Virus record (IMG/VR): IMGVR_UViG_3300023223_001973
Span: 1-64,000 of that record
Direction: 5' to 3' (one strand)
Source: a virus
Length of the DNA stretch: 64,000 nucleotides
Of the stretch, positions 3,038-38,376 are shown piece after piece (the first letter of the stretch is position 1; every line of letters begins with the position of its first letter). Below the pieces are notes generated by a model. It ran no database searches. It had not been told where the DNA came from and saw nothing but the letters and a program-made list of their open reading frames with translations. Made by a program: the position numbers and the translations under genes.

Positions 3038-3263
3038 TGACCTTCCAACTCTGGCCCTTCCTCAGTGGGAACTGGAGATGCTTGAATTTCAGAAGAAGCT
3101 GAAAAAGGAAATGGATGCTTATTTCCGCTCTAAAATGATAGTTCCTGCTAAATACTTTGGAGGCCCTTATGAAAGTAGTCGATCTGTTAGAACTGATCAA
3201 GGACGTGGACCTGGAGGCAGAGGTCCCGAGCGAGATCATCGACAAACTGACCCAGGTACCTGA
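3021..3263 (+). CDS. Small hypothetical protein overlapping both neighbours
   Basis: An 80-residue ORF starting at ATG 3021 (or 3024), inside the end of the previous gene. Residues about 5-55 look like a genuine helical protein ([21 protein letters not shown]). The C-terminal 30 residues are Gly/Arg-rich and overlap the start of the next gene in another frame, so the protein may be real over its first two-thirds only. No family recognised and the start is uncertain. Confidence 0.45.
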
Positions 3264-3672
3264 TGGCTCACCGCCTCGCCCTGTCCGTGGTAAGCTTCCC
3301 AACCGTCGCAATGGAATAACCCAGAAGGTATCTGTTGCTCAGCAGACAGTCTATCTCCGATCTGGACTGTATGAAGATGGTTCTCTGGGTGAGATATTCA
3401 TTGACATGTCCAGACAGGGTGCTGGTTATCGTTCCATTATGGGCTGCTTTGCTATCGCGGTAAGTCTTGGTTTGCAGCATGGTGTACCGCTTGAACGCTT
3501 TGTTAATGCTTTTGTATGGACAAGATTCGATCCGCAAGGCCAAGTTGCTGGCCATCCTTCTATAAAACACTGTACGTCAGTGGTGGACTATATCTTTAGA
3601 GACTTGGCTTATCACCATCTTGGTGATGAGGATATGGCTAAGTATGATCCTAAGGAGCACTCTTACCTATAA
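3169..3672 (+). CDS. Stand-alone RNR C-terminal (TSCPD/NrdJ-tail-like) domain protein
   Basis: A 167-residue protein; ATG 3169 is chosen because GGAGG lies 5 nt upstream. The central part ([19 protein letters not shown], then the [15 protein letters not shown] and [11 protein letters not shown] regions, then [16 protein letters not shown]) closely follows the C-terminal region of B12-dependent class II ribonucleotide reductases (NrdJ). There it is a domain fused to the catalytic barrel. The catalytic part is absent from this window. It could be a piece of a split reductase, a regulator of the host enzyme, or the free TSCPD-type domain family. Its neighbour is a Cys-rich protein. Confidence 0.75.
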
Positions 3673-3999: not shown

Positions 4000-4181
4000 T
4001 TAAGAAATCCCCACGTAATTCATATAAGAAGCGTGTACAAGACTTATTTCCTGAGTCAAAGGCCTGGAAGGTGGGAAGGAAGAAGTGGAGGATTCTTACC
4101 TCTCAGGGTCATGTCATTGGTGAACACATTTCTCCTGGTAAGGCTTGGGAGAACGCGGCTAAGCTATTTAAGTTGACATAA
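3996..4181 (+). CDS. Small basic protein, 61 aa
   Basis: It starts at an ATG overlapping the upstream TGA. The first 30 residues are strongly basic (KKSPRNSYKKR), followed by a short WRILTSQG strand and a C-terminal helix. A nucleic-acid-binding role fits the charge but no family is recognised. Confidence 0.55.
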   Translation: MIKKSPRNSYKKRVQDLFPESKAWKVGRKKWRILTSQGHVIGEHISPGKAWENAAKLFKLT

Positions 4182-4186
4182 CTTAT

Positions 4187-4199
4187 TGCTCTTTGACAA
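4187..4199 (+). promoter_or_regulatory. boxA-like element
   Basis: TGCTCTTTGACAA differs at one position from the bacterial rRNA antitermination boxA (TGCTCTTTAACAA). It lies 41 bp before the gene at 4241. A near-identical copy lies directly before the tmRNA (4705-4717). It could recruit NusB/S10-type antitermination factors; the TTGACA inside it could alternatively be read as a -35 box. Confidence 0.45.
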
Positions 4200-4240
4200 T
4201 TTAGTCAACCCTAACCTGCCTTGAAAGGGGGTGATGTGCA

Positions 4241-4513
4241 ATGGCAGACAAACGTTTGGCGAAGCCCGGCGACGTGGTTGTATACCACGATCCAAAGGGT
4301 GTGCCGCATAACGCTCTGGTAACCATAGCGTGGACTGAGACCTGCATCAACCTGGTGCTTGTATCGGATGATGAGGATAAGCAGGATACGTATGGTCGTC
4401 AGATTGAGCGGCAAACTTCGATGGCTCACGTTGATGAGTCAACGGTGCATGGATTCTACTGGCGTTGGCCCGATGAGGAACCCAACCCATACGTGCCGCC
4501 GAAGTCGAAGTAG
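4241..4513 (+). CDS. Hypothetical phage protein, 90 aa
   Basis: ATG start after an AAAGGGGGTG ribosome site. The N-terminal part (KPGDVVVYHDPKGVPHNALV) looks like a small beta-barrel (KOW/SH3-like) and the end is Pro-rich. I recognise this only as a conserved-looking phage small protein. It is the last gene before the RNA cluster. Confidence 0.65.
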   Translation: MADKRLAKPGDVVVYHDPKGVPHNALVTIAWTETCINLVLVSDDEDKQDTYGRQIERQTSMAHVDESTVHGFYWRWPDEEPNPYVPPKSK

Positions 4514-4704: not shown

Positions 4705-4717
4705 TGTTCTTTGACAA
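4705..4717 (+). promoter_or_regulatory. boxA-like element before the tmRNA
   Basis: TGTTCTTTGACAA, two differences from the rrn boxA consensus and one from the copy at 4187. It ends 3 bp before the mature tmRNA 5' end. Leader boxA sequences are normal in rRNA operons, so a stable-RNA antitermination role is plausible. Confidence 0.4.
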
Positions 4718-4720
4718 TAT

Positions 4721-5070
4721 GGGGGTGAATTGGATTCGACTGGCTGTATGAGCTATCGTGCTGCGTGTCGTGGTTGGTCGGTTGGCCACGTTAAAAGCCG
4801 TCCAAAAGCTTATCTGCGGAATATACCGCACGTCTGCGCTTGGTCTCCGGACCACGTGCCGTCGCTGCCTGAGCGATGTACCCAAGAAGGCACTTCGTCA
4901 AGGTGTCCCGCTGAAGACGGTTTTAGTTGGTGGGAGGACAGGTGGGGAAAGACCCACTGCCGAACCTGCGTCACGAGGGCCGGGCAATAAACGGAAACAG
5001 TGACTATGCATGTAGACGCCGGTAGTTTGGCAGTTCCAGCACGTGGGTTCGACTCCCACCACCTCCACCA
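4721..5070 (+). ncRNA. ssrA: Phage-encoded tmRNA (one-piece)
   Basis: Transfer-messenger RNA rescues stalled ribosomes by adding a degradation tag. The 5' end GGGGGTG (4721-4727) pairs with CACCTCC (5060-5066), including the G·U at pair 3 that marks alanine acceptors. The 5' segment GGATTCGAC matches bacterial tmRNAs, the T arm is at 5043-5059 (GTGGG, TTCGACT, CCCAC), and the 3' ACCA is encoded. Near the 3' part, GACTATGCATGTAGACGCC resembles the E. coli segment before the T arm. A tag ORF starts most plausibly at GCA 4828 and runs to TGA 4870-4872, giving ARLRLVSGPRAVAA, whose AVAA end fits known proteolysis tags. The resume codon is inferred from the ATATACC sequence before GCA and could differ. 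Confidence 0.93.
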
Positions 5071-5175
5071 AATTAAGTCCCTGCTGCGGAGCGTCTTAAG
5101 TGGCGCATGGGAGAGCTCCTCGTGCACAGAGGAGAGGCAACCGGAAGATGGGTATCCGGCCAGTGGGGAATCTAT

Positions 5176-5250
5176 TGACCTGTAGCTCAATGGTAGAGCG
5201 CCTGGCTGTTAACCAGGAAGTTGGAGGTTCGAGCCCTCCCGGGTCAGCCA
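5176..5250 (+). tRNA. tRNA-Asn (GTT)
   Basis: Complete cloverleaf: acceptor TGACCTG (5176-5182) pairs with CGGGTCA (5240-5246), D arm GCTC/GAGC, anticodon stem CCTGG/CCAGG with anticodon GTT in the loop CTGTTAA, T loop TTCGAGC, and an encoded GCCA end. It lies 105 bp after the tmRNA and is probably on the same transcript. It is the only tRNA I find in the window. Confidence 0.95.
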
Positions 5251-5729: not shown

Positions 5730-6326
5730 GTGGTTACTAGCTCCCTAAGTGAGGTTGGGTTTGCTATAGGGAATGGAGAGACAAGGAATGGCGTCGATCT
5801 CGGACATATCTCTCAGTATGGTGTTATCTACGGCTGTAATGCGCTATATCGCGACTTCTCTCCTGACATCCTAGTCTCTGTTGATCGTCTTATGATTGGC
5901 GAGATCATGGAGTCTGATTACTCGGGCCGCATGATCTATCGATCTCGTGAGGAGAAAGGTTGGTTGCACTCTACCTGGGAAGATAGGTCATATATTGATA
6001 AAGGGTGGTCAGCAGGCCCGACTGCTGTATGGTTGATGTGTAAGCGACATGTGAACATTAGGCGTATATTCCTAGTAGGATTTGATTTGGATAGTACACC
6101 CGGATCAGGTGGGAAAGATCATCAGAACAACATCTACAAAGGAACCGCCAATTATCGTACGGCTGATGATCCTAATGCTCCTTCAAGGAACTGGGAGAAG
6201 CAGCTCTTGCAGGTGTTTAAGGAGTTTGGGCATATCCAGTTTGTAAGGGTTGGTGGGGAGGATCCACCAATACCCTGGCGACAGTTCTCTAACGTGTATC
6301 AAAACGACCTTGATATCTTGCCTTAG
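5730..6326 (+). CDS. Rossmann-like protein of the glycan locus (DUF115/MAF-like)
   Basis: A 198-residue protein with a GTG start. The N-terminal FAIGNGETRNGVDL, GCNALYRDF and VSVDRLM segments match a family I know from phages and from flagellin or surface-glycosylation loci (DUF115/MptE-like Rossmann fold). The central WSAGPTAVWLM and FLVGFDLD segments fit a nucleotide-sugar-type fold. It opens a run of glycosyltransferase genes, which supports a sugar-related role. Specific activity unknown. Confidence 0.55.
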   Translation: MVTSSLSEVGFAIGNGETRNGVDLGHISQYGVIYGCNALYRDFSPDILVSVDRLMIGEIMESDYSGRMIYRSREEKGWLHSTWEDRSYIDKGWSAGPTAVWLMCKRHVNIRRIFLVGFDLDSTPGSGGKDHQNNIYKGTANYRTADDPNAPSRNWEKQLLQVFKEFGHIQFVRVGGEDPPIPWRQFSNVYQNDLDILP

Positions 6327-6333
6327 GGGGTGT

Positions 6334-7200
6334 ATTATTATCGTTCAGGTGCCTACCGGGATTGGAGACTTCTCTTGGGTCTATAGCAAACTTGCTTCTC
6401 TTGAGATTCCAGTGACAATAGAGGTCTGTGCCGGAGGACCTGCTCGCCTTCAACCTATAGCTGAGCTGCTTCCTCGCATTGAGAGGATGTATACTGGAAA
6501 TATAGGTTATGGTGAGCTAGCTGTGAAGCAGCTGCCTGCCGAGACAACTCGTGCTCAGTTGATGGCCTGGCCCGCAGGTGCACCTATTCCACTCTCATGC
6601 AATACCCACCTGGAGAATGGTAATCGTGTGGAGACCTGGCTCCCAGATATTCCTACCTATCACCATTACCCTGTTCTAGTCTCTCAGCAGGACATTGACC
6701 AGGCCAAGGCTCTTGTTCCCTTCAAGGACTATGTCTGTATCTATGCCTCAAGTAAGGCTACTTGTGCTACCTGGACGGGGTGGATGGGTCCTCAGTGGGT
6801 CGAGTTTATGAATCTATTCCGGGATAAGATAGCACCTATGAGCTTTGTTCTGATTGGTGCACAATGGGATGTGGATCTTGGAGTAGAGGTTCAACAGTGT
6901 GCTGCTGTTGCTCAGATACCCTTTGTTAATCTAGTGAACCTAACCAGGTTGGGTACTGCCTTAAAGATTATCAAGAACTCTCATTATATGGTGTCATTCC
7001 CGTCTGGGATGGGCATTATGTCTCATGTTATTCGTCAGCCCTGCACAATGTTCTATCCTTCTCCTCTTGTCAAGATGCTTCGTACTTTTGTATCTCCAGA
7101 GTCAGCTGCTCTGAATAGGTTTCATGAGACTATTTTCTGCCCACCTGCAGAGCTTATACAATGGCTGCTTGATGTTTATAAGATTAAGGAGCATCTATGA
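6334..7200 (+). CDS. GT9-like glycosyltransferase (probable ATT start)
   Basis: About 288 residues. The protein naturally begins with a beta strand (IIIVQVPTGIGDFSWVYSKL) typical of glycosyltransferase family 9 / heptosyltransferase-like proteins. The C-terminal half has HYMVSFPSGMGIMSHV, the usual nucleotide-sugar-binding region. No ATG, GTG or TTG sits at the right place: the only upstream in-frame ATG (6250) lies deep in the previous gene. AGGGGG at 6325-6330 is followed by ATT ATT ATC, so ATT at 6334 or 6337 is the likely start. TTG at 6310 and GTG at 6349 are less likely alternatives. Confidence 0.6.
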   Translation: MIIVQVPTGIGDFSWVYSKLASLEIPVTIEVCAGGPARLQPIAELLPRIERMYTGNIGYGELAVKQLPAETTRAQLMAWPAGAPIPLSCNTHLENGNRVETWLPDIPTYHHYPVLVSQQDIDQAKALVPFKDYVCIYASSKATCATWTGWMGPQWVEFMNLFRDKIAPMSFVLIGAQWDVDLGVEVQQCAAVAQIPFVNLVNLTRLGTALKIIKNSHYMVSFPSGMGIMSHVIRQPCTMFYPSPLVKMLRTFVSPESAALNRFHETIFCPPAELIQWLLDVYKIKEHL

Positions 7201-8051
7201 GGCCTGACTGCGTGAAGGTAGGCTATGGTGATCCACAGCATGGAATTGCTCTTTCTGTAGTGGTCCTATTTTGTGACTTTGATGATGAACAGACGAGGGC
7301 CTCGGCAACTGCTTGCCTACTGTCTGTTCGCGAGACTGCCCCCGTGGATTGTGAGATCATCTGTGTACTGAATAACGTCTCGACTGAGCTTCTTGCCTTC
7401 GTGGAACATGCTGCTGATCGTGATGGTCGCATTGTATTGATTAATCTTAGTGTAAACTTGGGCGTGGTGGCTAAGAATCTGGGTTATGAGATTGCCCAAG
7501 GTAAGCTCATCTTCTCCATCGATGGTGACGTTCTAGTTAGGGATAGGAAGGCCTTTACTGATTGTGTTACCTTTATGGAGAGCCGTAGACATATTCATAC
7601 AGCTCTGATAGGTCCATGTGGTGGTATCTTGGACAAGGAACGATGGACTGATGAAGACTGGCCTATTGCTAAGTGGGAAGAGGGCTCTAATGCCTTTGGG
7701 TATGATGATCCTATCGACTTTGGTGGTGAGGTTGCTGATCTTCATGGCATGAAGGTAGATGCCATACCCAGCTTGTTCTGGTGCTTTCGCAAGGAGGTCA
7801 TGGAGGAGGTAGGATCTCTGGACTGGAGGTTTGGTCCCTTTGTAGGATCTGACTCTGATTTTTGCTTTCGTGTTAAGGAGGCAGGATACGATATATGCCT
7901 TGTGAGAGTTCCTATTACCCATTATGGAGGTGGTGCGAGTACGCACAAGGCCTTCAAGAAGGACATTGATTTCCTAAGGGGAAGTCATATCAAGCTGCTC
8001 TACGATCTGTGGTATGAGAAGTTTGATGTGATAAGTGAGGGAGGCAAATGA
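7197..8051 (+). CDS. Family 2 (GT-A) glycosyltransferase
   Basis: A 284-residue protein starting at an ATG that overlaps the upstream TGA. It shows the GT2 order: an N-terminal SVVVLFCDF strand, an NNVS loop, NLGVVAKNLGYEIAQG, an SIDGDVLV metal-binding DXD-type motif, then FRKEVMEEVGSLDW and a GSDSDFCFRVKEAGYD acceptor-site region. It transfers a sugar from a nucleotide donor; the substrate is unknown. The signature is strong. Confidence 0.88.
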   Translation: MRPDCVKVGYGDPQHGIALSVVVLFCDFDDEQTRASATACLLSVRETAPVDCEIICVLNNVSTELLAFVEHAADRDGRIVLINLSVNLGVVAKNLGYEIAQGKLIFSIDGDVLVRDRKAFTDCVTFMESRRHIHTALIGPCGGILDKERWTDEDWPIAKWEEGSNAFGYDDPIDFGGEVADLHGMKVDAIPSLFWCFRKEVMEEVGSLDWRFGPFVGSDSDFCFRVKEAGYDICLVRVPITHYGGGASTHKAFKKDIDFLRGSHIKLLYDLWYEKFDVISEGGK

Positions 8052-8052
8052 T

Positions 8053-8385
8053 ATGAGTTTACTAGCAGTTCAACGTTTGACTGGTCGGGGCGAGATTCCG
8101 ATTGAGTTAGACTTTATGACTATTCCTGAGGCTCTTAAGGATGCTAAGGATTCGGATAGAATTGTAGTTGATGCCCGTACTATGCGGATGTTGTTTGGGT
8201 TTTGTGAGGATTGGGGGCCTCTTTCCAAGGAGAAGTGTGCTGCTCAGTATAAGAGGTTTGTAACAGCTGAGTTCTTGGATCGATGTATAAACTGTATGGA
8301 GGCAGTGGTGCAAGATGAGGCAACGAAGGAGCAAGTTCAATACTTCCTGGATCGGTTGAAAGGAGTAATGAAGGAAGAGTTGTGA
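8053..8385 (+). CDS. Hypothetical protein, 110 aa
   Basis: ATG 8053 is preferred because GGGAGG lies 8 bp upstream; the open frame extends back to a GTG at 8035. It is predicted mostly helical, with an EALKDAKDSDRIVVDARTMRMLFGF segment. No recognised domain. It follows the GT2 gene by 1 bp. Confidence 0.6.
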   Translation: MSLLAVQRLTGRGEIPIELDFMTIPEALKDAKDSDRIVVDARTMRMLFGFCEDWGPLSKEKCAAQYKRFVTAEFLDRCINCMEAVVQDEATKEQVQYFLDRLKGVMKEEL

Positions 8386-8412
8386 GTCCGGTACCAAATT
8401 ATAGCTATCATT

Positions 8413-8437
8413 GTAACGGAATCTGATCTTGAGGGTA
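8413..8437 (+). promoter_or_regulatory. Possible degenerate ECF-type promoter
   Basis: GTAAC at 8413-8417, a 16-nt spacer and GGTA at 8434-8437: one mismatch in each half of TGAAC-N16-CGTA. It is in the only sizeable gap before the radical SAM gene. Given two mismatches this could be chance. Confidence 0.25.
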
Positions 8438-8449
8438 CTGCTATATACA

Positions 8450-8497
8450 ATGAATCTATCTCACATTGGGACCTTTAACCCCAAGGGTGACTCATGA
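8450..8497 (+). CDS. Possible 15-residue leader peptide
   Basis: ATG 8450 opens a 15-codon frame (MNLSHIGTFNPKGDS) whose TGA overlaps the ATG of the radical SAM gene as ATGA. Such coupling is the same as between real genes here. A GAGGG is about 14 bp upstream, farther than ideal. It could be a translational-coupling leader or chance. Confidence 0.3.
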   Translation: MNLSHIGTFNPKGDS

Positions 8498-9927
8498 AAG
8501 TTCTATTTGTCGCTAAAGAGTTGAGGATGGACCCCCTCGGCATCATGTATCTCAGTGCCCAGCTCAAGCATGAAGGGCATGAGGTTGAGCTTGCCCGGAT
8601 GGATGACAAGAAGGCGTCGGGTCATGATGTGGTCAAGAGGTTCCAGCCCGACGTGCTAGCATATTCCATGTGCTCTGGTCTAGAGTGCTTCTATGAACAG
8701 TGGGATAAGGAGTTTCGTAAGCTGATCAACCATAGGGTTCGGAGCATGTGGGGTGGACCCGCGGTCACCTTTGATGTTGCCTTGAGGGCTCGTCTAAGTC
8801 AGGGCCCTGACAATATGGCCTTTGGTGGTGAGTGCGAGAAGTCATTTGCTGAATACTTGCGGACCTGGGAGGAGCCCAAGCCCAGTATCGTGGATCTTGA
8901 TGAGGTTCTCCCTCCTGATAGGGCTATCGCATATCAATTCGAGAGCCTGAGGAATAACCCCATCAAGAATGTTCTTACCCGCCGTGGTTGTCACTATGGC
9001 TGTTCCTACTGCTTCAATCGGGACTGGAACAAGATGTTCCGGAAGCAGCTCCCCAAGGGCATCTATCGGTACCACTCACCCGAACGCGTGGTTGAGGAGT
9101 GCCGGCAGGTCATGAAGGACTGGCCTGTGGAGATGTTCAACTTCGTGGATGACAACTATGCCTCATCTGAGGAATGGTTAGAGGAGTTTGCTCCTATCTA
9201 CAAGAAGGAGATAGGACTCCCCTTCTTCTGCTCCGTCCGTCCGGAGGATGCCCAGAAGAATGGTCCCATCATTCCTCTGATTAAGGCTGCTGGTGGCTGG
9301 ATCGTGAACATGGCCATTGAGTCCGCCAACAAGGAGAACCGGAAGCGTGTTCTCATCCGTGGTGGTAAGGGCCTCCAGCCTGTGATTGACACCATCAACG
9401 AAGTCCACAAGCACGGCATGGTCACTCGCCTGCAAAACATTGTTGGCCTGCCGGTAGAGGACCCGCTTGCTGACGCTTATGAGACTCTGGATTTCAACAT
9501 CATGGCCAAGCCTACCTCTTCATGGGCCGCTCTTCTTCAGCCTTATCGTGGGACCAAGGTCAACGAGATCGCTGAAGCAGGTGGCTTCCTGGCTGAGGAT
9601 CATGTTACCGATGAGGAGTTCTTCGGAAGGTCTGCGCTTAAGATTCGGGATAAGAGGAAGGTCGAGAGACTGCATAAGTTGTGGCCTCTGCTCACCTGCT
9701 ATCCCATCTTCCGGAAGATTGCACCTCTTCTGATCCGTATACCGCTGCCCTTCAGCTGGTTCACGTGGTTCTTCAAGTATACGAAGAAGCACTTCGCTGA
9801 ACGGGATCTGTGGGTTGTATGTCGTAAGAAGTCAGCTCGGGATGCCAACCTGCCCTTCCCTGTCAATTCTGCTCCGAATAAGAAAAAGATAGATGCTGAG
9901 GCACTTGAGACAGCATTGGATTGTTGA
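8494..9927 (+). CDS. B12-binding-type radical SAM enzyme
   Basis: A 477-residue protein. Residues 1-120 resemble a cobalamin-binding Rossmann domain (MKVLFVAKEL, then GIMYLSAQLKHEGHEVEL). The radical SAM barrel follows, with the cluster motif C166-x3-C170-x2-C173 in RGCHYGCSYCF. Enzymes of this layout methylate unactivated carbons or remodel natural products, sugars and nucleic acids. The C-terminal 80 residues contain an aromatic-rich helix (FSWFTWFFKY) that may contact membrane. Next to methyltransferases, sulfotransferase-like and glycosyltransferase genes, a glycan-modifying role is likely but inferred. Its TGA stop forms a TGAAC. Confidence 0.85.
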   Translation: MKVLFVAKELRMDPLGIMYLSAQLKHEGHEVELARMDDKKASGHDVVKRFQPDVLAYSMCSGLECFYEQWDKEFRKLINHRVRSMWGGPAVTFDVALRARLSQGPDNMAFGGECEKSFAEYLRTWEEPKPSIVDLDEVLPPDRAIAYQFESLRNNPIKNVLTRRGCHYGCSYCFNRDWNKMFRKQLPKGIYRYHSPERVVEECRQVMKDWPVEMFNFVDDNYASSEEWLEEFAPIYKKEIGLPFFCSVRPEDAQKNGPIIPLIKAAGGWIVNMAIESANKENRKRVLIRGGKGLQPVIDTINEVHKHGMVTRLQNIVGLPVEDPLADAYETLDFNIMAKPTSSWAALLQPYRGTKVNEIAEAGGFLAEDHVTDEEFFGRSALKIRDKRKVERLHKLWPLLTCYPIFRKIAPLLIRIPLPFSWFTWFFKYTKKHFAERDLWVVCRKKSARDANLPFPVNSAPNKKKIDAEALETALDC

Positions 9928-9954
9928 ACATTCTAGCTGGGACGTATTGGTTGT

Positions 9955-10725
9955 ATGAACTGTTATATGACCAAGGTTCCTTGGGTCTCCCACCCTGGCG
10001 ATGATCTCTCGATTCTAGGTGAGAAGGATGGTCTTACTGTCCTTCGGTGTTCCTTCTGTGGTCTAATCCAAGTTGACCATACGGACAAGGAAGCCTACCT
10101 AGACTCCTACCGCACTGCAGATGGTTACTTTACACGACGTGTAATGATAGGCCATGAGTCATATGCGGCTCGCCTTGCGCATGATGTGAGGGTGTCTGAG
10201 ATCCGAGTACGAAATCTCTTGTGGAGACTTCGCGCGCGGTCAAGGAGTAAGATATCCTTACTAGACATAGGGTGTGGGAATGGTGGCTTCATTAAGGCTG
10301 CTATCTCTCATGACTTCGATTGTCTCGGCGTTGATCTGTCACCTTATTTCACTAAGTGTAATGTGGAAGGCATTACTGGTGCCTCCTTTATGTGTCGTGA
10401 TCTGATTGCTCAGGGTAATGAGGGTCTGGGTCCTTTTGATGTGATTACGTTCCACGATAGCTTTGAACACTTTCTTGACCCTGTCGCCTATGTTGAGGCC
10501 CTAAGACCATTGCACAGTCCTGGGGGTCTGATAGTTGTTGAGATGCCTGATACTTCCTGCAATGAGTATGCTGAAGAGGGCATGAACTGGCGACACATGA
10601 AGCCCAAGGAACATCCGTTTCTGTATCGTGAGCAGATTATTGCTGATATGTTCAGGGATCTGGGTGTGGCTCTTGTCGATGTTGTCTATCCCATCCCTGG
10701 AAGGATGATTTTGTATCTGGGTTAG
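9955..10725 (+). CDS. SAM-dependent methyltransferase
   Basis: A 256-residue class I methyltransferase. An N-terminal Cys pair (RCSFCGL) suggests a small zinc-binding head, as in some sugar C-methyltransferases. The Rossmann motif I is LLDIGCGNGGF, and the post-motif FDVITFHDSFEHFLDPVAY is typical of the methyltransf_23 group. A C-terminal RMILYLG strand completes the fold. The ATG lies 9 nt after a CGTA, so the mRNA may be leaderless if that site is a promoter. Substrate unknown, probably a sugar given the neighbours. Confidence 0.85.
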   Translation: MNCYMTKVPWVSHPGDDLSILGEKDGLTVLRCSFCGLIQVDHTDKEAYLDSYRTADGYFTRRVMIGHESYAARLAHDVRVSEIRVRNLLWRLRARSRSKISLLDIGCGNGGFIKAAISHDFDCLGVDLSPYFTKCNVEGITGASFMCRDLIAQGNEGLGPFDVITFHDSFEHFLDPVAYVEALRPLHSPGGLIVVEMPDTSCNEYAEEGMNWRHMKPKEHPFLYREQIIADMFRDLGVALVDVVYPIPGRMILYLG

Positions 10726-10727
10726 TA

Positions 10728-11384
10728 ATGGAGAAAACTCAGCTTACCCCCCACGAGTTCCAGGCGCTTTATGAGAATGTAAAGTGTCCCGGCGATCCTT
10801 CTCGGTTCAATCATTACGTCCAGTCTGCCTGGATTAAGTTCCAGATCGCTAGACTACTTCAACCTTCTAATATTGTGGAGTTAGGGGTCCGTGCTGGATA
10901 CTCAGCTTGGTCTCTGCATCATGGTTGGCCTATAGCCAACATTATAGCCTATGACAGCTATCAATCTGGCTATCAGGGAACTCAGGGACATGAGCTTGAG
11001 CTACAAGTTCATGCTGAAGAACTGCTTGAGAGGTTAGGAATAGAGCTTAGGATTGAGGATACGCAGAAGCTGAAGTCTATTCCATCTGCTGCTCTGTATC
11101 ATGTTGACGCAGACCATACTTATGAAGGTTGCTATAAGGACATTAAGCTATGCATGAACTCAAATGACGAAGCTGTGATAGTGGTTCATGACAGTAATGC
11201 TGATGCAGTTCATAGCGCAATAAAGGATGTAGTTACTTCAGCTAATCCTAGATGGTTCTGGGATAATATATCAAGTCATTGGGGTGATGCCGTCATCAGT
11301 AGGCGTCTTGAACCCTGGGTAGATAAGGTTAAACCGTTCCCTCCTAAGTTAGTGAAGTCTGACCCTGGCTGGCCCGATGAGTAG
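10728..11384 (+). CDS. Class I methyltransferase (Methyltransf_24-like)
   Basis: A 218-residue protein. Motif I is NIVELGVRAGYSAW, and ALYHVDADHTYEGCYKDIKL is the hallmark of the methyltransferase-24 family often found in glycan and natural-product loci. A VIVVHDSNAD strand follows. It begins 2 bp after the previous methyltransferase and overlaps the next gene by 8 bp. Substrate unknown. Confidence 0.8.
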   Translation: MEKTQLTPHEFQALYENVKCPGDPSRFNHYVQSAWIKFQIARLLQPSNIVELGVRAGYSAWSLHHGWPIANIIAYDSYQSGYQGTQGHELELQVHAEELLERLGIELRIEDTQKLKSIPSAALYHVDADHTYEGCYKDIKLCMNSNDEAVIVVHDSNADAVHSAIKDVVTSANPRWFWDNISSHWGDAVISRRLEPWVDKVKPFPPKLVKSDPGWPDE

Positions 11385-12105
11385 GCTCATTTACTTTGAG
11401 TCCTTCCCACACACTGGGTCCTGGTTCTTGATCAACTTTATCATGTCCCATCCTGAAGTGGGTGGGTTCCTCCCTGCATACCAGCTACCACTCGCCCTAA
11501 TGGGTGTAGATAACCCTCGCAAGGTGCTTGGAGGTCCTAATGATAAACCTCCGATCACTGAACATATGGGGACTGAACATTCTGTAACCTTGGTTCATTC
11601 CCACTGTCAAGGGGCTGATAGCTGTGCTTGGACCTTCCTTAACCTGCATCATGGTGTTCTGGTCTCACTTCGCGACCCATTAATGATCCTTGTTAGCTGG
11701 AAGCAGTCTGTACCCAACTTCAACCAAGGTCAGGTGGCAAGGTACTGGAGACGGTATTGTGCCTGGTACCCTCATCTTGGGAACCTTTGTGATGTAATCT
11801 ACTTTCCTATTGACTGGCTTGCTGGTGAATCTGTTGATACGAGATCATGGTACCTTATCCAGGTGTTGGACTGCTTCGATCTAGAAACTCATACCAACAT
11901 CATACATGAGACTGCTTCCTCTTGGGAGAGGGTGGGAGGTACTGGTGAGGGTTATCGTGCTGAGGCTCAGAAGGCGTATGATGATAGAGATGTGGAGTTC
12001 TTCGAGCGTACTATTCCTGAGGGGTTTAAGGTTCTGCGTGAATCAGAGGATCTTATGAGGCCCTTCCTCGAGCAGTGGTATAAGGACCTGTTATGGTGGT
12101 CATGA
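11377..12105 (+). CDS. Sulfotransferase-like protein 1
   Basis: A 242-residue protein. FPHTGSWFLINF at residues 10-21 fits the PAPS 5'-phosphosulfate-binding loop of sulfotransferases, and SLRDPLMILVSW fits the 3'-phosphate motif (RDP...S). Such enzymes move sulfate from PAPS to hydroxyls of sugars or lipids. The sequence is divergent, so activity is a prediction. The next gene is a second protein of the same type. Overlaps both neighbours. Confidence 0.6.
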   Translation: MSRLIYFESFPHTGSWFLINFIMSHPEVGGFLPAYQLPLALMGVDNPRKVLGGPNDKPPITEHMGTEHSVTLVHSHCQGADSCAWTFLNLHHGVLVSLRDPLMILVSWKQSVPNFNQGQVARYWRRYCAWYPHLGNLCDVIYFPIDWLAGESVDTRSWYLIQVLDCFDLETHTNIIHETASSWERVGGTGEGYRAEAQKAYDDRDVEFFERTIPEGFKVLRESEDLMRPFLEQWYKDLLWWS

Positions 12106-12812
12106 ATGATTCTTCTGTCATATTGGTTTGTACCTCTGGTAGGAGTGGTTCTCTCTATTTGAATGAAGTCTTTAAGCATCATAAGACCGGTGAGCAGGTT
12201 GTTCTCCATGAAGAGGGTGGTCGCCCTCCTTGGCGTGAAGATTTACCTGGACTTGCTGAGTCTGGCAAGGGTCTAATTCTGACTGGTCGCAATGCTATTG
12301 CTAGTTTAGGAGTGGAGTTGGCCCCTTATACACCTAAAGTTCTACACTTAGTGAGGAATGTACATGATGTCTGTATGAGCTGGTATGAGAGGATTCCTCA
12401 AGATCATTATAATCCTGAGCATGTTGCAGGGTTTTGGCCGTATGGTAACTCTTTTTCTCATTTAGATCGTAGGTGGTCTGAGTATCAGACCTATATATGG
12501 CATTGGTTCAGTACTTACTATGCTGGATTAAGTCTGTATCCTGTGCATACAACTCGTCAGTTGTATTTCCCTGATCTAAATGATGTTGATGCTATGAATG
12601 CTATATTGGATTGGTTAGGTATGATGGAGTTGTGTAATTCTAAGTCTTTAGAGCAGTGCCTTGGTGCTAAGAATTCTAGGATTAAGCATCGGTCTGGATC
12701 TCATATTGATACTGAACATGAGATGCACGAATGGCTTGATACTATGAGTGACCGTTCTAAAGAAAAAGTAAGAACAGTGGCTCGGAGTTTGGGAGAGGGG
12801 TACTCAATATGA
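12102..12812 (+). CDS. Sulfotransferase-like protein 2
   Basis: ATG 12102 is chosen for its ATGA overlap with the upstream stop; an in-frame ATG at 12093 adds three residues. CTSGRSGSLYLNEVF (residues 10-24) is a good PAPS-loop motif (SGRSGS), and HLVRNVHDVCMSW is the matching RN...S motif. A stretch of AT-richer codons around 12.4-12.7 kb differs from the preceding genes. Its substrate is unknown. With the previous gene it forms a tandem pair. Confidence 0.65.
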   Translation: MNDSSVILVCTSGRSGSLYLNEVFKHHKTGEQVVLHEEGGRPPWREDLPGLAESGKGLILTGRNAIASLGVELAPYTPKVLHLVRNVHDVCMSWYERIPQDHYNPEHVAGFWPYGNSFSHLDRRWSEYQTYIWHWFSTYYAGLSLYPVHTTRQLYFPDLNDVDAMNAILDWLGMMELCNSKSLEQCLGAKNSRIKHRSGSHIDTEHEMHEWLDTMSDRSKEKVRTVARSLGEGYSI

Positions 12813-13999
12813 AGGTCTTGATGTCCTGTCGACAGCACCCCAAGCACCTGTGTGGTGGTCTATCCATTGCTTCCTGGAATACAGCTAAGGCTGCTCGTGA
12901 TGCTGGTCATGATGTGACCTTCCTTACCGCTGAACATCCTAGTCAACCTGATCTTGCCGAAACAGAAGAGGATGGTATTAAGGTTTCCTGGGTGCAAGGT
13001 ATGTTCCATGACTCCACCGGTTATCCTGATCTATATAAGTGCCTACGTGCCCATAAGGAATGGGTCATGGGGTTCGACATTCTGCATAGCCAGTCATCTG
13101 CACTGACTCCTTGCCTAGAGTGGGGCAAGCCCATCATCTTCCAAGACCATGGAACAATGCTAGCTGCCATGCAGGATGATATGAACATGCATGCCTTTGG
13201 CATGGAGAAGAAGTTTGGCATTGCACTTGGTACCTCCTGGAAGACCGATGTAGCCTACAACAAGATGTATGACGAGTTTACCCTCTGTATTGAGGGTCAG
13301 CGTGAGATGGATTATCTTCGTAAGTTCACTCAGGTGTGGGCTACATCTGCTATCTCTGCTGAGGATCTAGTAACTCGGTACTTTCTATGTAATGTAAGGT
13401 TGTTCTATCACTCCATCTATGATCTTGTGTATCCAGGTCCTCGTGAGGCTGCTTCCACACCTGTGGTAGGGTTCTTCGCACTGGAGTTGGATGCTCCTCA
13501 GAAGTATGCCAAGCTAGGTCTCAGTCAGCTGTTGCCCATTAAGGACCAGATCTCTATCAAGTTGGTCGGGAATGGACCTGTGACAGTGGCCTGGGCGAAG
13601 GAACACTTCCCTCGTGTAGAGTATACGGGATACCTTCAAGAGTCTGATGCCTTCCAAGCTCTATGTTCAGTGGATGTCCTGTTTGAGTGCTCATGCCACC
13701 ATCGTGGTCTGAACCTTGCAGGGATTACTGCAATGGGCTTGGGTATCCCTGTTATAGCCTACCCAACTGGTGGTCACCCTGATATGATTGGAGAGGAAGC
13801 TCTATATAATATATATGGACCTGGTGGGGCACTGGTTGATCCGTTTGATGATCAGATGGCGTGCGAGGCAGTCAGGAATATTACTATTAACAGGTCTGTT
13901 CGTAGTGTGAAGGCCCGCTTACAGTTTGAGAGCAAGTTCCTTCCAAAGATCGTATCCAAGCGATTGGATGAACTGTATGCAGAGATTCTTTCCGGGTAA
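12809..13999 (+). CDS. GT4-type (GT-B) glycosyltransferase
   Basis: A 396-residue protein starting at an ATG overlapping the upstream TGA. N-terminal GGLSIASWNTAKAARDAGHDVTFLT is the GT-B acceptor-domain start. The C-terminal half has the donor-domain pattern KLVGNGP, VEYTGYL, a FECSCHHRGLNLAGITAMGLGIPVIA stretch and PTGGHPDMI with the glutamate-bearing loop. It likely adds one sugar of the glycan made by this locus. Confidence 0.85.
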   Translation: MKVLMSCRQHPKHLCGGLSIASWNTAKAARDAGHDVTFLTAEHPSQPDLAETEEDGIKVSWVQGMFHDSTGYPDLYKCLRAHKEWVMGFDILHSQSSALTPCLEWGKPIIFQDHGTMLAAMQDDMNMHAFGMEKKFGIALGTSWKTDVAYNKMYDEFTLCIEGQREMDYLRKFTQVWATSAISAEDLVTRYFLCNVRLFYHSIYDLVYPGPREAASTPVVGFFALELDAPQKYAKLGLSQLLPIKDQISIKLVGNGPVTVAWAKEHFPRVEYTGYLQESDAFQALCSVDVLFECSCHHRGLNLAGITAMGLGIPVIAYPTGGHPDMIGEEALYNIYGPGGALVDPFDDQMACEAVRNITINRSVRSVKARLQFESKFLPKIVSKRLDELYAEILSG

Positions 14000-15008
14000 C
14001 CCCACAGGAAACCCCGTTCCAATCCACAAGATTAAGGGCTTTCCTCCTGAGGCATGGGACCCTTTCAAGTATAATGAGCTTGCTTTTGTGAAGGGTCCTG
14101 TTAGGGTGCTTCCCTATCAGAAGATGGTCTTGAATCCTGAGAAGAGAGCCCGCAAGGCCATAATGCTCAAGTACTGGGGTGCTGTTGGGGACTTTTACTA
14201 CTTCCTGACCTTTGCAAACTACGTACTGAAGAAGTATTCTACCCGCAAGATTGTCCTAGCTGCTGATACCTACAGCCGGTATCAAGGCCATCCCATAGTG
14301 GAGCTATGTCAGCACAATGGTTTGATTGATGAGCTGTGGCTTCATCGGAGGAAGACGGGTGGCCCTAATACCTTCCCTTCCGAGTTCTATGCTCAGGCTG
14401 AACTTGATTCTCCTAATGTCATGTTATTCCATGTTGGAATTTACTATCCTCAGTGCCTTGTAGGTCCTGGTGTAAAAGAGTGGCCTCTGCGTCAGATGCG
14501 TCAAGCTTGTGAGAAGGAGCGTTTCCTAATCCATATTCTCTCCGAGAAAGAGCTTAGAAGGATGTATCCTCAGTTACCAGAGAAGTATGTGACATTCCAT
14601 CCTAGGACCTTTGGTAAGAATTATAAGAACGAAGTTCCCATGACGGCTATTAATGCTGTGGCCCATCTTCAAATCCCTATTGTTGTGCTCCAGTTTCAGG
14701 GTGAGAACCATGCCAAGCTGTTTGAAGAGATTCCTAATGTACATGTCTTCCATATAAATGATACTCCTACCTCTATCTGGGTGCAGTATTACGCCCAGTT
14801 TCATGTTGGCCTTGAGAGTAGCCCGCTTCTAGCTGCGGTTATTCATAAGGTCCATGCCTACTATTTCCCCTTCTCTGGCATCTCTATGTTCAAGCGTGAT
14901 CTTGGCATTGAGCCCTATTGTCATGAGTTGGATTGGGATGCCACGGCTGAAGATCTCCACAAGACCTTCAAGACTGCTCTTAAACGTAGGATTATCCCAC
15001 GCGTATAG
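13968..15008 (+). CDS. GT9-like glycosyltransferase
   Basis: Start taken as ATG 13968 (13977 equally possible), overlapping the previous gene by about 30 bp; the frame is open further back. Residues about 50-85 carry AIMLKYWGAVGDFYYFLTFA, the G-x-x-GD pattern at the start of heptosyltransferase-like (GT9) enzymes, and the C-terminal half has a VTFHPRTFGKNY segment and FHVGLESSPLLAAVIHKV in the donor domain. Function inferred from fold and context. Confidence 0.6.
   Translation: MNCMQRFFPGNPTGNPVPIHKIKGFPPEAWDPFKYNELAFVKGPVRVLPYQKMVLNPEKRARKAIMLKYWGAVGDFYYFLTFANYVLKKYSTRKIVLAADTYSRYQGHPIVELCQHNGLIDELWLHRRKTGGPNTFPSEFYAQAELDSPNVMLFHVGIYYPQCLVGPGVKEWPLRQMRQACEKERFLIHILSEKELRRMYPQLPEKYVTFHPRTFGKNYKNEVPMTAINAVAHLQIPIVVLQFQGENHAKLFEEIPNVHVFHINDTPTSIWVQYYAQFHVGLESSPLLAAVIHKVHAYYFPFSGISMFKRDLGIEPYCHELDWDATAEDLHKTFKTALKRRIIPRV
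14981..15005 (+). promoter_or_regulatory. ECF-type promoter variant (TAAAC-N16-CGTA)
   Basis: TAAAC at 14981-14985, a 16-nt spacer and CGTA at 15002-15005, one mismatch from consensus. It lies at the very end of the glycosyltransferase gene and 23 bp before the ATG at 15028. Spacing to the gene is like the other promoters. Confidence 0.5.
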
Positions 15009-35305: not shown

Positions 35306-35633
35306 ATCGGACTTACTCGCTCTGATTGAGGTCTTGGTTGGTAAAGGTGTCATTTCAACAACTGATGCCCGTAGGGTCAAAGAGGTATCAGACCTGGTAA
35401 AGCTTCTAGTCGCTCAAGATCTAGTAACTGAAGAAGAGGTCGAAGAACTTACTATCATGTATGGCGATTTCCTAAATCAGTTGTTGGTTTTATACCAACG
35501 AGGCGTACATGATAAAGATCTCTTCAATCGCTTGAAAGAAAAGTTCGGCGTTAAGTTCCCTAAGATCTTCACTCTTTTGGAGCAGATGCATGAGAATCCA
35601 CGACAGGGACACGATACGGCAGACGCTAGTTGA
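35292..35633 (+). CDS. Hypothetical helical protein, 113 aa
   Basis: Starts 14 bp inside the clamp gene and ends 44 bp inside the next gene. Entirely helical pattern (SDLLALIEVLVGKGV, DLVKLLVAQDLV and LFNRLKEKFG). No recognised family. Confidence 0.6.
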   Translation: MQKSKSDLLALIEVLVGKGVISTTDARRVKEVSDLVKLLVAQDLVTEEEVEELTIMYGDFLNQLLVLYQRGVHDKDLFNRLKEKFGVKFPKIFTLLEQMHENPRQGHDTADAS

Positions 35634-38376
35634 CAACGTAAGGCTGCTTAAAGAGCCTGGTTGGTTCTTCTTCGAGGATACCAACCTTGGCAAGCCTGAG
35701 GACTTCGACAAGGCGAAGCTGCGTATCTTGATCCTGTTTCTCTCCGCAGGCGAGACCCGCGCTGTCTCCTCGACTGACATTGTGCTGACCTCGATTGTTC
35801 AACAGCATCTGGGCGATCAAGCCTTTGTGGACGTGTGCTTCTTGCCCACGCAGCACAATGCTGAGGTCTTGGATAAGCTCAACCTTCCTTGGGTCTTCGG
35901 TGGGTTGTCCCATCGCCACATCAACGAATTTGACATGGTGATTGTCTCCAATGCAATCATTGATGAGAAGATCAATATCTTCCCGCTGTTCCTGAAGAGT
36001 GACTTCCCTCTATGGTCCACTGAGCGGTTTGATAAGGAACATCCTCTTGTCATGTTGGGTGGGCATGGTGCTTCTGAGGCTGAGCCTCTCTATGGGGTCT
36101 CTGCGGATGGTAAGAACCGTTGCATTCCCGATTGTACCTATACGGGGTTTGCTGAACGCTTCTTCCCAGATATGCTGAAGACTCTTCTGGCCATGCACAC
36201 CGAGCAAAGCCTGAGGACCCGGGATAAGAAGGAGCTTGCCTTCGATCTGGTTAAGGATTATGAGAATATCTATATCCCCTGGGCCTATGATCACATCCTG
36301 GCGGAAGATAACTGGACGATTAAGGAGATCGTTCGGAACACCAAGCGGGTGCCTAAGCGTGTGAAGTTCGCTAAGGTCCTGCCTGAGGACTGTGAGAACG
36401 TAGCAGGGTTTGAGAACAAGCTCCTGTACAGTCATGGGAACTATGATTCCAATGACATCCAGATCAGCTTTGGGTGCAGTGGTGGCTATGTTTGCAGCTT
36501 CTGCCATGAGGGGAACCTACAAGCTTGGCGCGAGAAGTCTGTGGATAAGATCGTGAAGGAGATGCAGGCTGCTCGTAACAAGTCATTGTCCAGTACTATC
36601 TCCTTCTATAGTTACAACACGAATTACCACACGCAGTACGAAGACATGATGAAGGCTGCGGCATCTATGTACCCGAAGATCTCAGCCATCGCTATGCGTG
36701 CTGATGAGATCGCTGCCCGGCCCGACTACTTCAAAATGAACAAGTACCTGGGTCTCTCCCGGATAACTCTAGGCGTGGAAGGTGTCAGCGCCAGGCTCCG
36801 GGATGGCTACATGACCAAGGCTCTCAGTGAGCAGTCGATCTTTGAGGCTGCTAACGCCTGCTTTATGAACCGGTTTATGCAGGTTAAGCTGTTCTTCATC
36901 CTTGCAGGAGTGGAAGAGCAGCAGGACTGGGAGGAAGGCGTGAAGATGATTAAGACTCTGGTTCGTATGCGTGACGAGTCTGGGGCCAATACACATCTTC
37001 GTGTATCCTTCTCCATTCTGTGCTACTATCCTGACACTTCCATTGCATGGGAGGAACGTAGGGCTGTTAAGCACACCATCGAGAAGGGGCGGATCTCGTA
37101 CTTTATTGAAGAGTGCAAGAAGATGGGTGTAGGAACCCGTTTCTCTTCGCGTGGCATGTCCACTGTCTTCCAGCAGTACAATCTGGATGTTGGTCGTCCT
37201 ATGACGGCCATCTACGACCGTCTCTACAATGAGCAGGGGTTCATCTGGTACCGGAACGTACCGGACAGCATAGTTCATAGGCTTCTTGAGCTCTGTGAGG
37301 AATATGGTCTTCCCGACTATAAGAAGATCCTTGATCAGCGTCCCTATGACTGGATCTTCCCTTCTGACACTATCTTCGTCAAGAGTCGTCAGTTCTTGGT
37401 GAAGGCTGCTAAGAAGCTGAAGAACATGGAGCCTGTGATCTACTGTATGCCCACGCAGTCCAAGAATGAAGCACGTGGCTGTGACTCCTGCGGCCTGTGT
37501 AACACCAAGGAGCTGGTGGCTATTACGTCGGGTAGAGTGTCTCATGGGACGAATGTGCCTGTCGATGAGGTTATCCTGACTCTCGCCAAGAACAAGCCTT
37601 ATCATCGGTATCGGTTTGAGTTCAGGGTTCCTAAGGAGGCTGCGTTCCTGGTTAAGAGACCACTGGCTCATTATCACATTGCTAAGCTCCTGCCTGAGGA
37701 GTTCAAGCCAGAAGTGTACAGTGTGGGGTCTGATGGTGACCCGGGACGCTGGACAATCTGCAATGAGACTCCTTACTCCTTCCACGGTAAGTACTTCTTC
37801 GACCTGTTGACGAAGGTGCCCATGCCAGAGCTTCCCATGGACAGGGATCTGGGACTGCTCAAGCTGAAGGGCATCCATGAGATTCCTCTCAAGTTTGCTC
37901 TCAAGCCCAATGACCTGGTGCTGTCGGTCATGTCAGTAAGGGGAGACTCCAGGCTGTATCAAGGTCTACGGAGTGGCTCTATCAGGTTCCCCTGGATGAA
38001 GAATGACTTCCCGCTGGAGTGGTCTCATGATGCCGGTACAGTTGACTTCAGTCTTGTGAAGGGTGAGATAGATAAGCTGCTTGTGGTGCATCCTATCCGC
38101 TCTAACATGGTGAAGTGGCTGAGCGATCTGACTGGGAAGAATTACATGGGAGCTTATAAGGATAACTTTATAAGCTTGGAGCATGTGACATATATGCGAC
38201 CTGTTCCTGGATTTGGTTGTCGTCTCTGCACGTCAGATGCGTATATTGATCTGACAACTGGCAAACAGGTCTCCTTGTGCCCAGCTCATACCCAGTCCCT
38301 TGTCCTCAAGGCGCTTTCCAAGGGCAAGAAGGCTCCAGTGGTATCACCTGCGAAGGAGCTTATTCTACAGGCCTAA
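35590..38376 (+). CDS. Large radical SAM protein with extra Cys clusters
   Basis: 928 residues. A cobalamin-binding-like domain (residues 40-200) is followed by the radical SAM cluster FGCSGGYVCSFCHEG with C296-x5-C302-x2-C305, wider than the usual CX3CX2C. After the barrel come RGCDSCGLC (about residue 638), a region around RYRFEFRVPKEAAFLVKRPL resembling the RNA-binding-like DUF2344 domain linked to radical SAM proteins, and a C-terminal zinc-like site (GCRLCTSD and LCPAH). Such proteins often methylthiolate or methylate RNA or protein. The function here is unknown. ATG 35590 overlaps the previous gene. Confidence 0.75.
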   Translation: MRIHDRDTIRQTLVDNVRLLKEPGWFFFEDTNLGKPEDFDKAKLRILILFLSAGETRAVSSTDIVLTSIVQQHLGDQAFVDVCFLPTQHNAEVLDKLNLPWVFGGLSHRHINEFDMVIVSNAIIDEKINIFPLFLKSDFPLWSTERFDKEHPLVMLGGHGASEAEPLYGVSADGKNRCIPDCTYTGFAERFFPDMLKTLLAMHTEQSLRTRDKKELAFDLVKDYENIYIPWAYDHILAEDNWTIKEIVRNTKRVPKRVKFAKVLPEDCENVAGFENKLLYSHGNYDSNDIQISFGCSGGYVCSFCHEGNLQAWREKSVDKIVKEMQAARNKSLSSTISFYSYNTNYHTQYEDMMKAAASMYPKISAIAMRADEIAARPDYFKMNKYLGLSRITLGVEGVSARLRDGYMTKALSEQSIFEAANACFMNRFMQVKLFFILAGVEEQQDWEEGVKMIKTLVRMRDESGANTHLRVSFSILCYYPDTSIAWEERRAVKHTIEKGRISYFIEECKKMGVGTRFSSRGMSTVFQQYNLDVGRPMTAIYDRLYNEQGFIWYRNVPDSIVHRLLELCEEYGLPDYKKILDQRPYDWIFPSDTIFVKSRQFLVKAAKKLKNMEPVIYCMPTQSKNEARGCDSCGLCNTKELVAITSGRVSHGTNVPVDEVILTLAKNKPYHRYRFEFRVPKEAAFLVKRPLAHYHIAKLLPEEFKPEVYSVGSDGDPGRWTICNETPYSFHGKYFFDLLTKVPMPELPMDRDLGLLKLKGIHEIPLKFALKPNDLVLSVMSVRGDSRLYQGLRSGSIRFPWMKNDFPLEWSHDAGTVDFSLVKGEIDKLLVVHPIRSNMVKWLSDLTGKNYMGAYKDNFISLEHVTYMRPVPGFGCRLCTSDAYIDLTTGKQVSLCPAHTQSLVLKALSKGKKAPVVSPAKELILQA

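Follow-up and report, generated by a model that had tools for sequence, protein, structure and literature searches.

A one-piece phage tmRNA gene preceded by a candidate rRNA-type boxA element

Is the tmRNA-like locus carried by a phage a working gene, and by what signal would such an untranslated RNA be transcribed in infection? The locus lies in the virus record IMGVR_UViG_3300023223_001973, which is 99,693 bases long; the window, meaning the whole stretch of DNA analysed, is the part of this record from positions 1 to 64,000. The record encodes several phage markers, namely a Gp23-type (T4-type) capsid, a UvsX-like recombinase and a clamp loader, as well as a distant, P1/SP-15-like portal. 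Ten phages with tmRNA have been described (PMC4131195), many Streptomyces phages carry one, and tmRNA has been found in 402 of 18,146 phage genomes (PMC9004378). These genes are therefore known, as the first-pass annotation of this locus had stated, although its description of them as rare was too strong.

The tmRNA gene and its tag

A complete one-piece tmRNA (ssrA) with an encoded CCA occupies positions 4721-5070 on the + strand, the extent on which ARAGORN and Rfam agree. The covariance-model search that had been proposed as a check gave 108.7 bits to RF00023 (E 1.5e-41), against a family cut-off of 47, with model positions 1-374 covered and the match hence full length. When the stems were checked, the acceptor stem was found to form 7/7 pairs, with the G·U at pair 3 noted in the first-pass annotation, a discriminator A and the CCA likewise encoded (ACCA). 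The T-arm is GTGGG/CCCAC, and the folding energy of helix 2 is -36.4 kcal/mol against a shuffle mean of -21.7, a value equalled by 0/500 shuffles. Pseudoknot PK1 (CGTGG/CCACG and CGGTT/AGCCG; 4769-4800, +) has its stems in pseudoknot order. The pseudoknots downstream of the tag, of which a one-piece tmRNA is expected to have three, are partly resolved, comprising one possible PK2-like stem set and one clear PK4-like set (CAGGT/ACCTG crossing TGCC/GGCA, with an inner GTGGG/CCCAC hairpin; 4939-4986, +), the latter recognised from its stem positions. The locus is a real phage tmRNA, an already-known kind of RNA, and is very probably functional.

The tag frame runs from a GCG resume codon at 4816 (gene position 96) to a TGA stop (4816-4872, +), from which ARAGORN predicts the 18 aa tag AEYTARLRLVSGPRAVAA. 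This position is in line with those seen in 145 tmRNAs, the phage one included, the resume codons of which fall mainly at gene positions 88-101, with 102-113 empty. The GCG has T at -5 and A at -4; A is found at -4 in 145/145 ARAGORN calls, but the program's model seems to demand it, such that this criterion is partly built in. The first-pass annotation had the frame right and the start wrong: its 14 aa tag is the C-terminal part of AEYTARLRLVSGPRAVAA, lacking the first four residues, AEYT, as it was read from a GCA at 4828. GCA is a common resume codon (13/145), but this one, at gene position 108, falls in the unoccupied interval beyond 88-101 and has T rather than A at -4, an argument not independent of ARAGORN; a tag starting there, giving ARLRLVSGPRAVAA, is extremely improbable. 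A better resume codon in another frame had also been raised as a possible objection; the preferred GCG is in the same frame as the GCA, and the other frames are open for >50 codons.

The predicted tag resembles those of other tmRNAs in its typical resume context, its shortness, its hydrophobic-Ala-Ala end and its stop. The AVAA end reported earlier is present and, although uncommon among the 145 tmRNAs, is not odd. The tag had also been called distinctive, which it is not strikingly so, given that tags in this set range from 7-32 aa, 87/145 end in AA and several have a net positive charge; tags this long are known from bacteria.

The RF00023 score is below that of most sampled bacterial ssrA genes (mostly 120-200 bits against 108.7), and the leader described below is like that of bacterial ssrA, both of which would suit a captured host gene that is retained with its leader as a passenger, or is decaying, to no benefit of the phage. 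This is nevertheless thought improbable, as all the parts that were checked are intact, from the G3-U acceptor, CCA, T-arm, helix 2 and PK1 to the resume context, AVAA tag and stop.

The tmRNA is followed by a tRNA-Asn (GTT) gene at 5176-5250 (+; ARAGORN, RF00005 72 bits). The spacer between them (5071-5175) folds somewhat better than shuffles do (z -1.77), without matching any Rfam family itself. The ssrA gene is a common integration site of temperate phages (PMC12656738), hence the tmRNA might be an integration-site copy, or provirus host flank, and not a phage gene at all. However, the gene is full, not a 3' fragment, and is flanked on both sides by members of phage families (phrog_9572 at 114-896, phrog_84 at 3157-3672 and phrog_30607 at 5730-6326), leaving such an origin very unlikely. 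No match to SmpB was found in the phage record, while control genomes did give matches, and the phage tmRNA would consequently rely on the SmpB of its host.

Searches of phage and viral collections at the DNA and protein levels yielded no close relatives of the phage. For one neighbouring protein, distant relatives were found, with no tmRNA close to them, and L008/G007, which was among the best tmRNA matches, was rejected as a relative, being an unrelated phage. Elsewhere in the window, consecutive genes of the glycosyltransferase, radical SAM/B12, methyltransferase and sulfotransferase types, together with a second radical SAM gene (7197-14000 and 35590-38376), suggest surface or glycan modification.

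A boxA element beside the mature 5' end

What tells most about the locus was missed by the first-pass annotation and lies outside the coordinates then reported (4721-5070). This is an exact match to an rrn-type boxA, TGTTCTTTGACAAT, at 4705-4718 (+), 2 nt 5' of the mature tmRNA end. A second exact match, TGCTCTTTGACAAT, is found at 4187-4200 (+), 40 nt 5' of a 90-aa gene at 4241; beyond these two, no site with <=1 mismatch was found in the whole 99.7-kb record. The core of the phage element, TCTTTGACA, is common to 16S leaders in three phyla. It is one base off the gamma-proteobacterial consensus GYTCTTTAANA (PMC5725501). As to the host, tmRNA similarity pointed to no clear group.

The placement of the element would suit the predicted transcribed leader of a stable RNA. 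No boxB hairpin of the lambda nut-site type was found beside the phage boxA, the leader RNA folding like shuffles (z 0.0), and no boxC was identified in the phage. Judged from its sequence, together with its recurrence at bacterial ssrA genes, 16S leaders and four viral tmRNAs, the phage boxA probably works.

Alternatively, the tmRNA may work while TCTTTGACAAT forms part of a promoter, as a TTGACA or GACAAT hexamer, or serves as some other signal, and is not a boxA for NusB-S10. The first copy is indeed overlapped by a sigma-70-like promoter match (TTGACA-16-GACAAT, 4173-4200), but this is at chance level, with 1 found against 1.0 expected, and no -35 partner accompanies the copy at 4705. Furthermore, the viral records L254 and L255, like many ssrA genes from one phylum, have a distinct TATAAT-like box 5' of the element, meaning that the element would itself be transcribed, and the same phyla have the element in their 16S leaders. 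A promoter or other such signal is consequently regarded as unlikely, and a boxA is the preferred reading.

boxA at bacterial ssrA genes and other viral tmRNAs

Genes for ssrA were sampled from five phyla and scored for a sequence with <=1 mismatch to TTCTTTGACA or TTCTTTGAAA lying <=40 nt upstream. In three of these phyla such a sequence was present at 5/27 (0.15 expected), 8/29 (0.21) and 11/30 (0.05) genes, or 24/86 against 0.4 expected when pooled, an excess of about sixtyfold in a test that is not fully independent, as the pattern was first spotted in some of the sampled sequences. Without the motif being chosen beforehand, TCTTTGAC and CTTTGACA emerged as the top 8-mers upstream of 141 ssrA genes. 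By contrast, boxA was found upstream of none of 24 tRNAs (Fisher p 0.0016).

The 16S leaders of the same three phyla contain boxA in 18/28, 18/21 and 8/16 cases, against 3.3%, 9.9% and 7.5% of controls. Since the same element is found in these leaders, that at ssrA is, by sequence and place, the rrn-type boxA of the three lineages. It is not a general feature of all ssrA, an idea that was rejected as the two other phyla are not enriched (0/28 with 0.22 expected, and 1/27 with 0.04) and as boxA is absent from E. coli ssrA and from two Streptomyces phage tmRNAs. No link between boxA and ssrA was found in the literature searched; a survey of boxA states that non-coding RNAs were left out (PMC5725501).

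Two further observations were made on the bacterial genes. In the phylum of G006 (L092-L120), many of the tags predicted have ALN or SLN at their end rather than LAA, such as ADYAYVPAYALN and ANNFAFATASLN. In an Omnitrophota MAG, an ssrA gene that was missed by ARAGORN (L021:5953-6622, -) appears to contain a group I intron (RF00028, 62.4 bits) that splits it close to the 3' end.

Among viruses, TCTTTGACA was found 1-6 nt 5' of the tmRNA in four other records, some of which may be chance matches; a stricter boxA-tmRNA pattern misses these cases. Three of the four tmRNAs are complete and share their locus with tRNA genes, while one runs off the stretch examined. L254 and L255 have a small hairpin along with the separate promoter-like sequence 5' of boxA, in contrast to the phage leader, in which there is no clear boxB-like hairpin. 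Between L254 and L257 the flank has diverged and TGATCTTTGACA has been kept. The related tmRNAs of L254 (8257-8699, -), L257 (10098-10535, -) and L255 (from 12767, +) would have a long acidic tag, AEDNTDALLAEAEYIFNNAAEFLGGVEEEYLLAA and AEDNTSDLLAEAEYIINHADEFLVGCEDEYELAA, if read from a GCA skipped by ARAGORN.

A different type of viral element is represented by two 75-nt sequences, L006:13740-13814 (-) and L013:4957-5031 (+), which consist of the tRNA-like domain of tmRNA only (GGGGGTGAATTGGATTCGAC ... CACCTCCACCA). These resemble the element of phage DS6A; a similar molecule inhibits tmRNA, perhaps through titration of SmpB (PMC4131195).

Proposed mechanism and known systems

The anatomy of the RNA, its resume frame and the recurrent boxA match can be combined with what is known of these families into a mechanism, in which the steps of charging, tagging, proteolysis, NusB-S10 binding and antitermination are all supplied by the latter. 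The phage stable-RNA unit would consist of the complete one-piece tmRNA and then tRNA-Asn, with the rrn-type boxA on the tmRNA precursor immediately upstream of the mature 5' end. With host NusB-S10 bound to boxA, RNA polymerase would be able to cross the untranslated region of tmRNA and tRNA without being terminated by Rho, after which RNase P processing would trim the leader. Host alanyl-tRNA synthetase would charge the tmRNA with alanine via the G3-U pair and host SmpB would deliver it to the ribosome, where resumption at GCG 4816 would add Ala and AEYTARLRLVSGPRAVAA to the product, the AVAA end marking it for host proteases. The phage tmRNA may thereby supplement or replace that of the host in infection, and it is plausible that it takes the place of host ssrA while the host is being shut down, as suggested in the first-pass annotation. 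Overall, the view that the tmRNA works with the SmpB of the host, and is transcribed with rRNA-type antitermination, is considered somewhat likelier to be correct than to be wrong.

Each component has known counterparts. The one-piece tmRNAs of mycobacteriophages Bxz1 and Wildcat, Bacillus phage G and Streptomyces phages Jay2Jay and Quaran19 are likewise full ssrA genes with an AA-ending tag (PMC4131195); the present gene shares DNA similarity with these at the conserved 3' end only, its tag differs, and Jay2Jay and Quaran19, unlike this phage, have no upstream boxA. Methylophage Melnitz also carries a tmRNA, proposed to support translation in infection, but it is two-piece and under a glutamine riboswitch (PMC9004378), whereas the present one is one-piece and behind boxA. 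The boxA of rrn leaders, which acts in NusB-S10 antitermination, has the same core in the 16S leaders of three phyla and similarly precedes an untranslated stable RNA, although it lies about 30-180 nt before 16S and the phage boxA abuts the tmRNA. An example outside rRNA operons is the BoxA of the E. coli suhB leader, which represses an mRNA (PMC5725501), while that of the phage precedes a tmRNA.

The tmRNA alone is one more member of a known set; it is the boxA leader that makes the locus worth following up, as it joins ribosome rescue to rRNA antitermination, which had not been linked before as far as the literature searched shows. It is proposed, with confidence evenly divided for and against, that in several phyla ssrA is a target of NusB-S10 rRNA antitermination through a boxA abutting the mature 5' end, and that this leader is retained or gained by phages infecting such hosts, letting their tmRNA-tRNA units be transcribed in the way that rRNA is. 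If true, the output of tmRNA would be tied to the supply of Nus factors, and a phage could use rRNA-type transcription for its translation genes.
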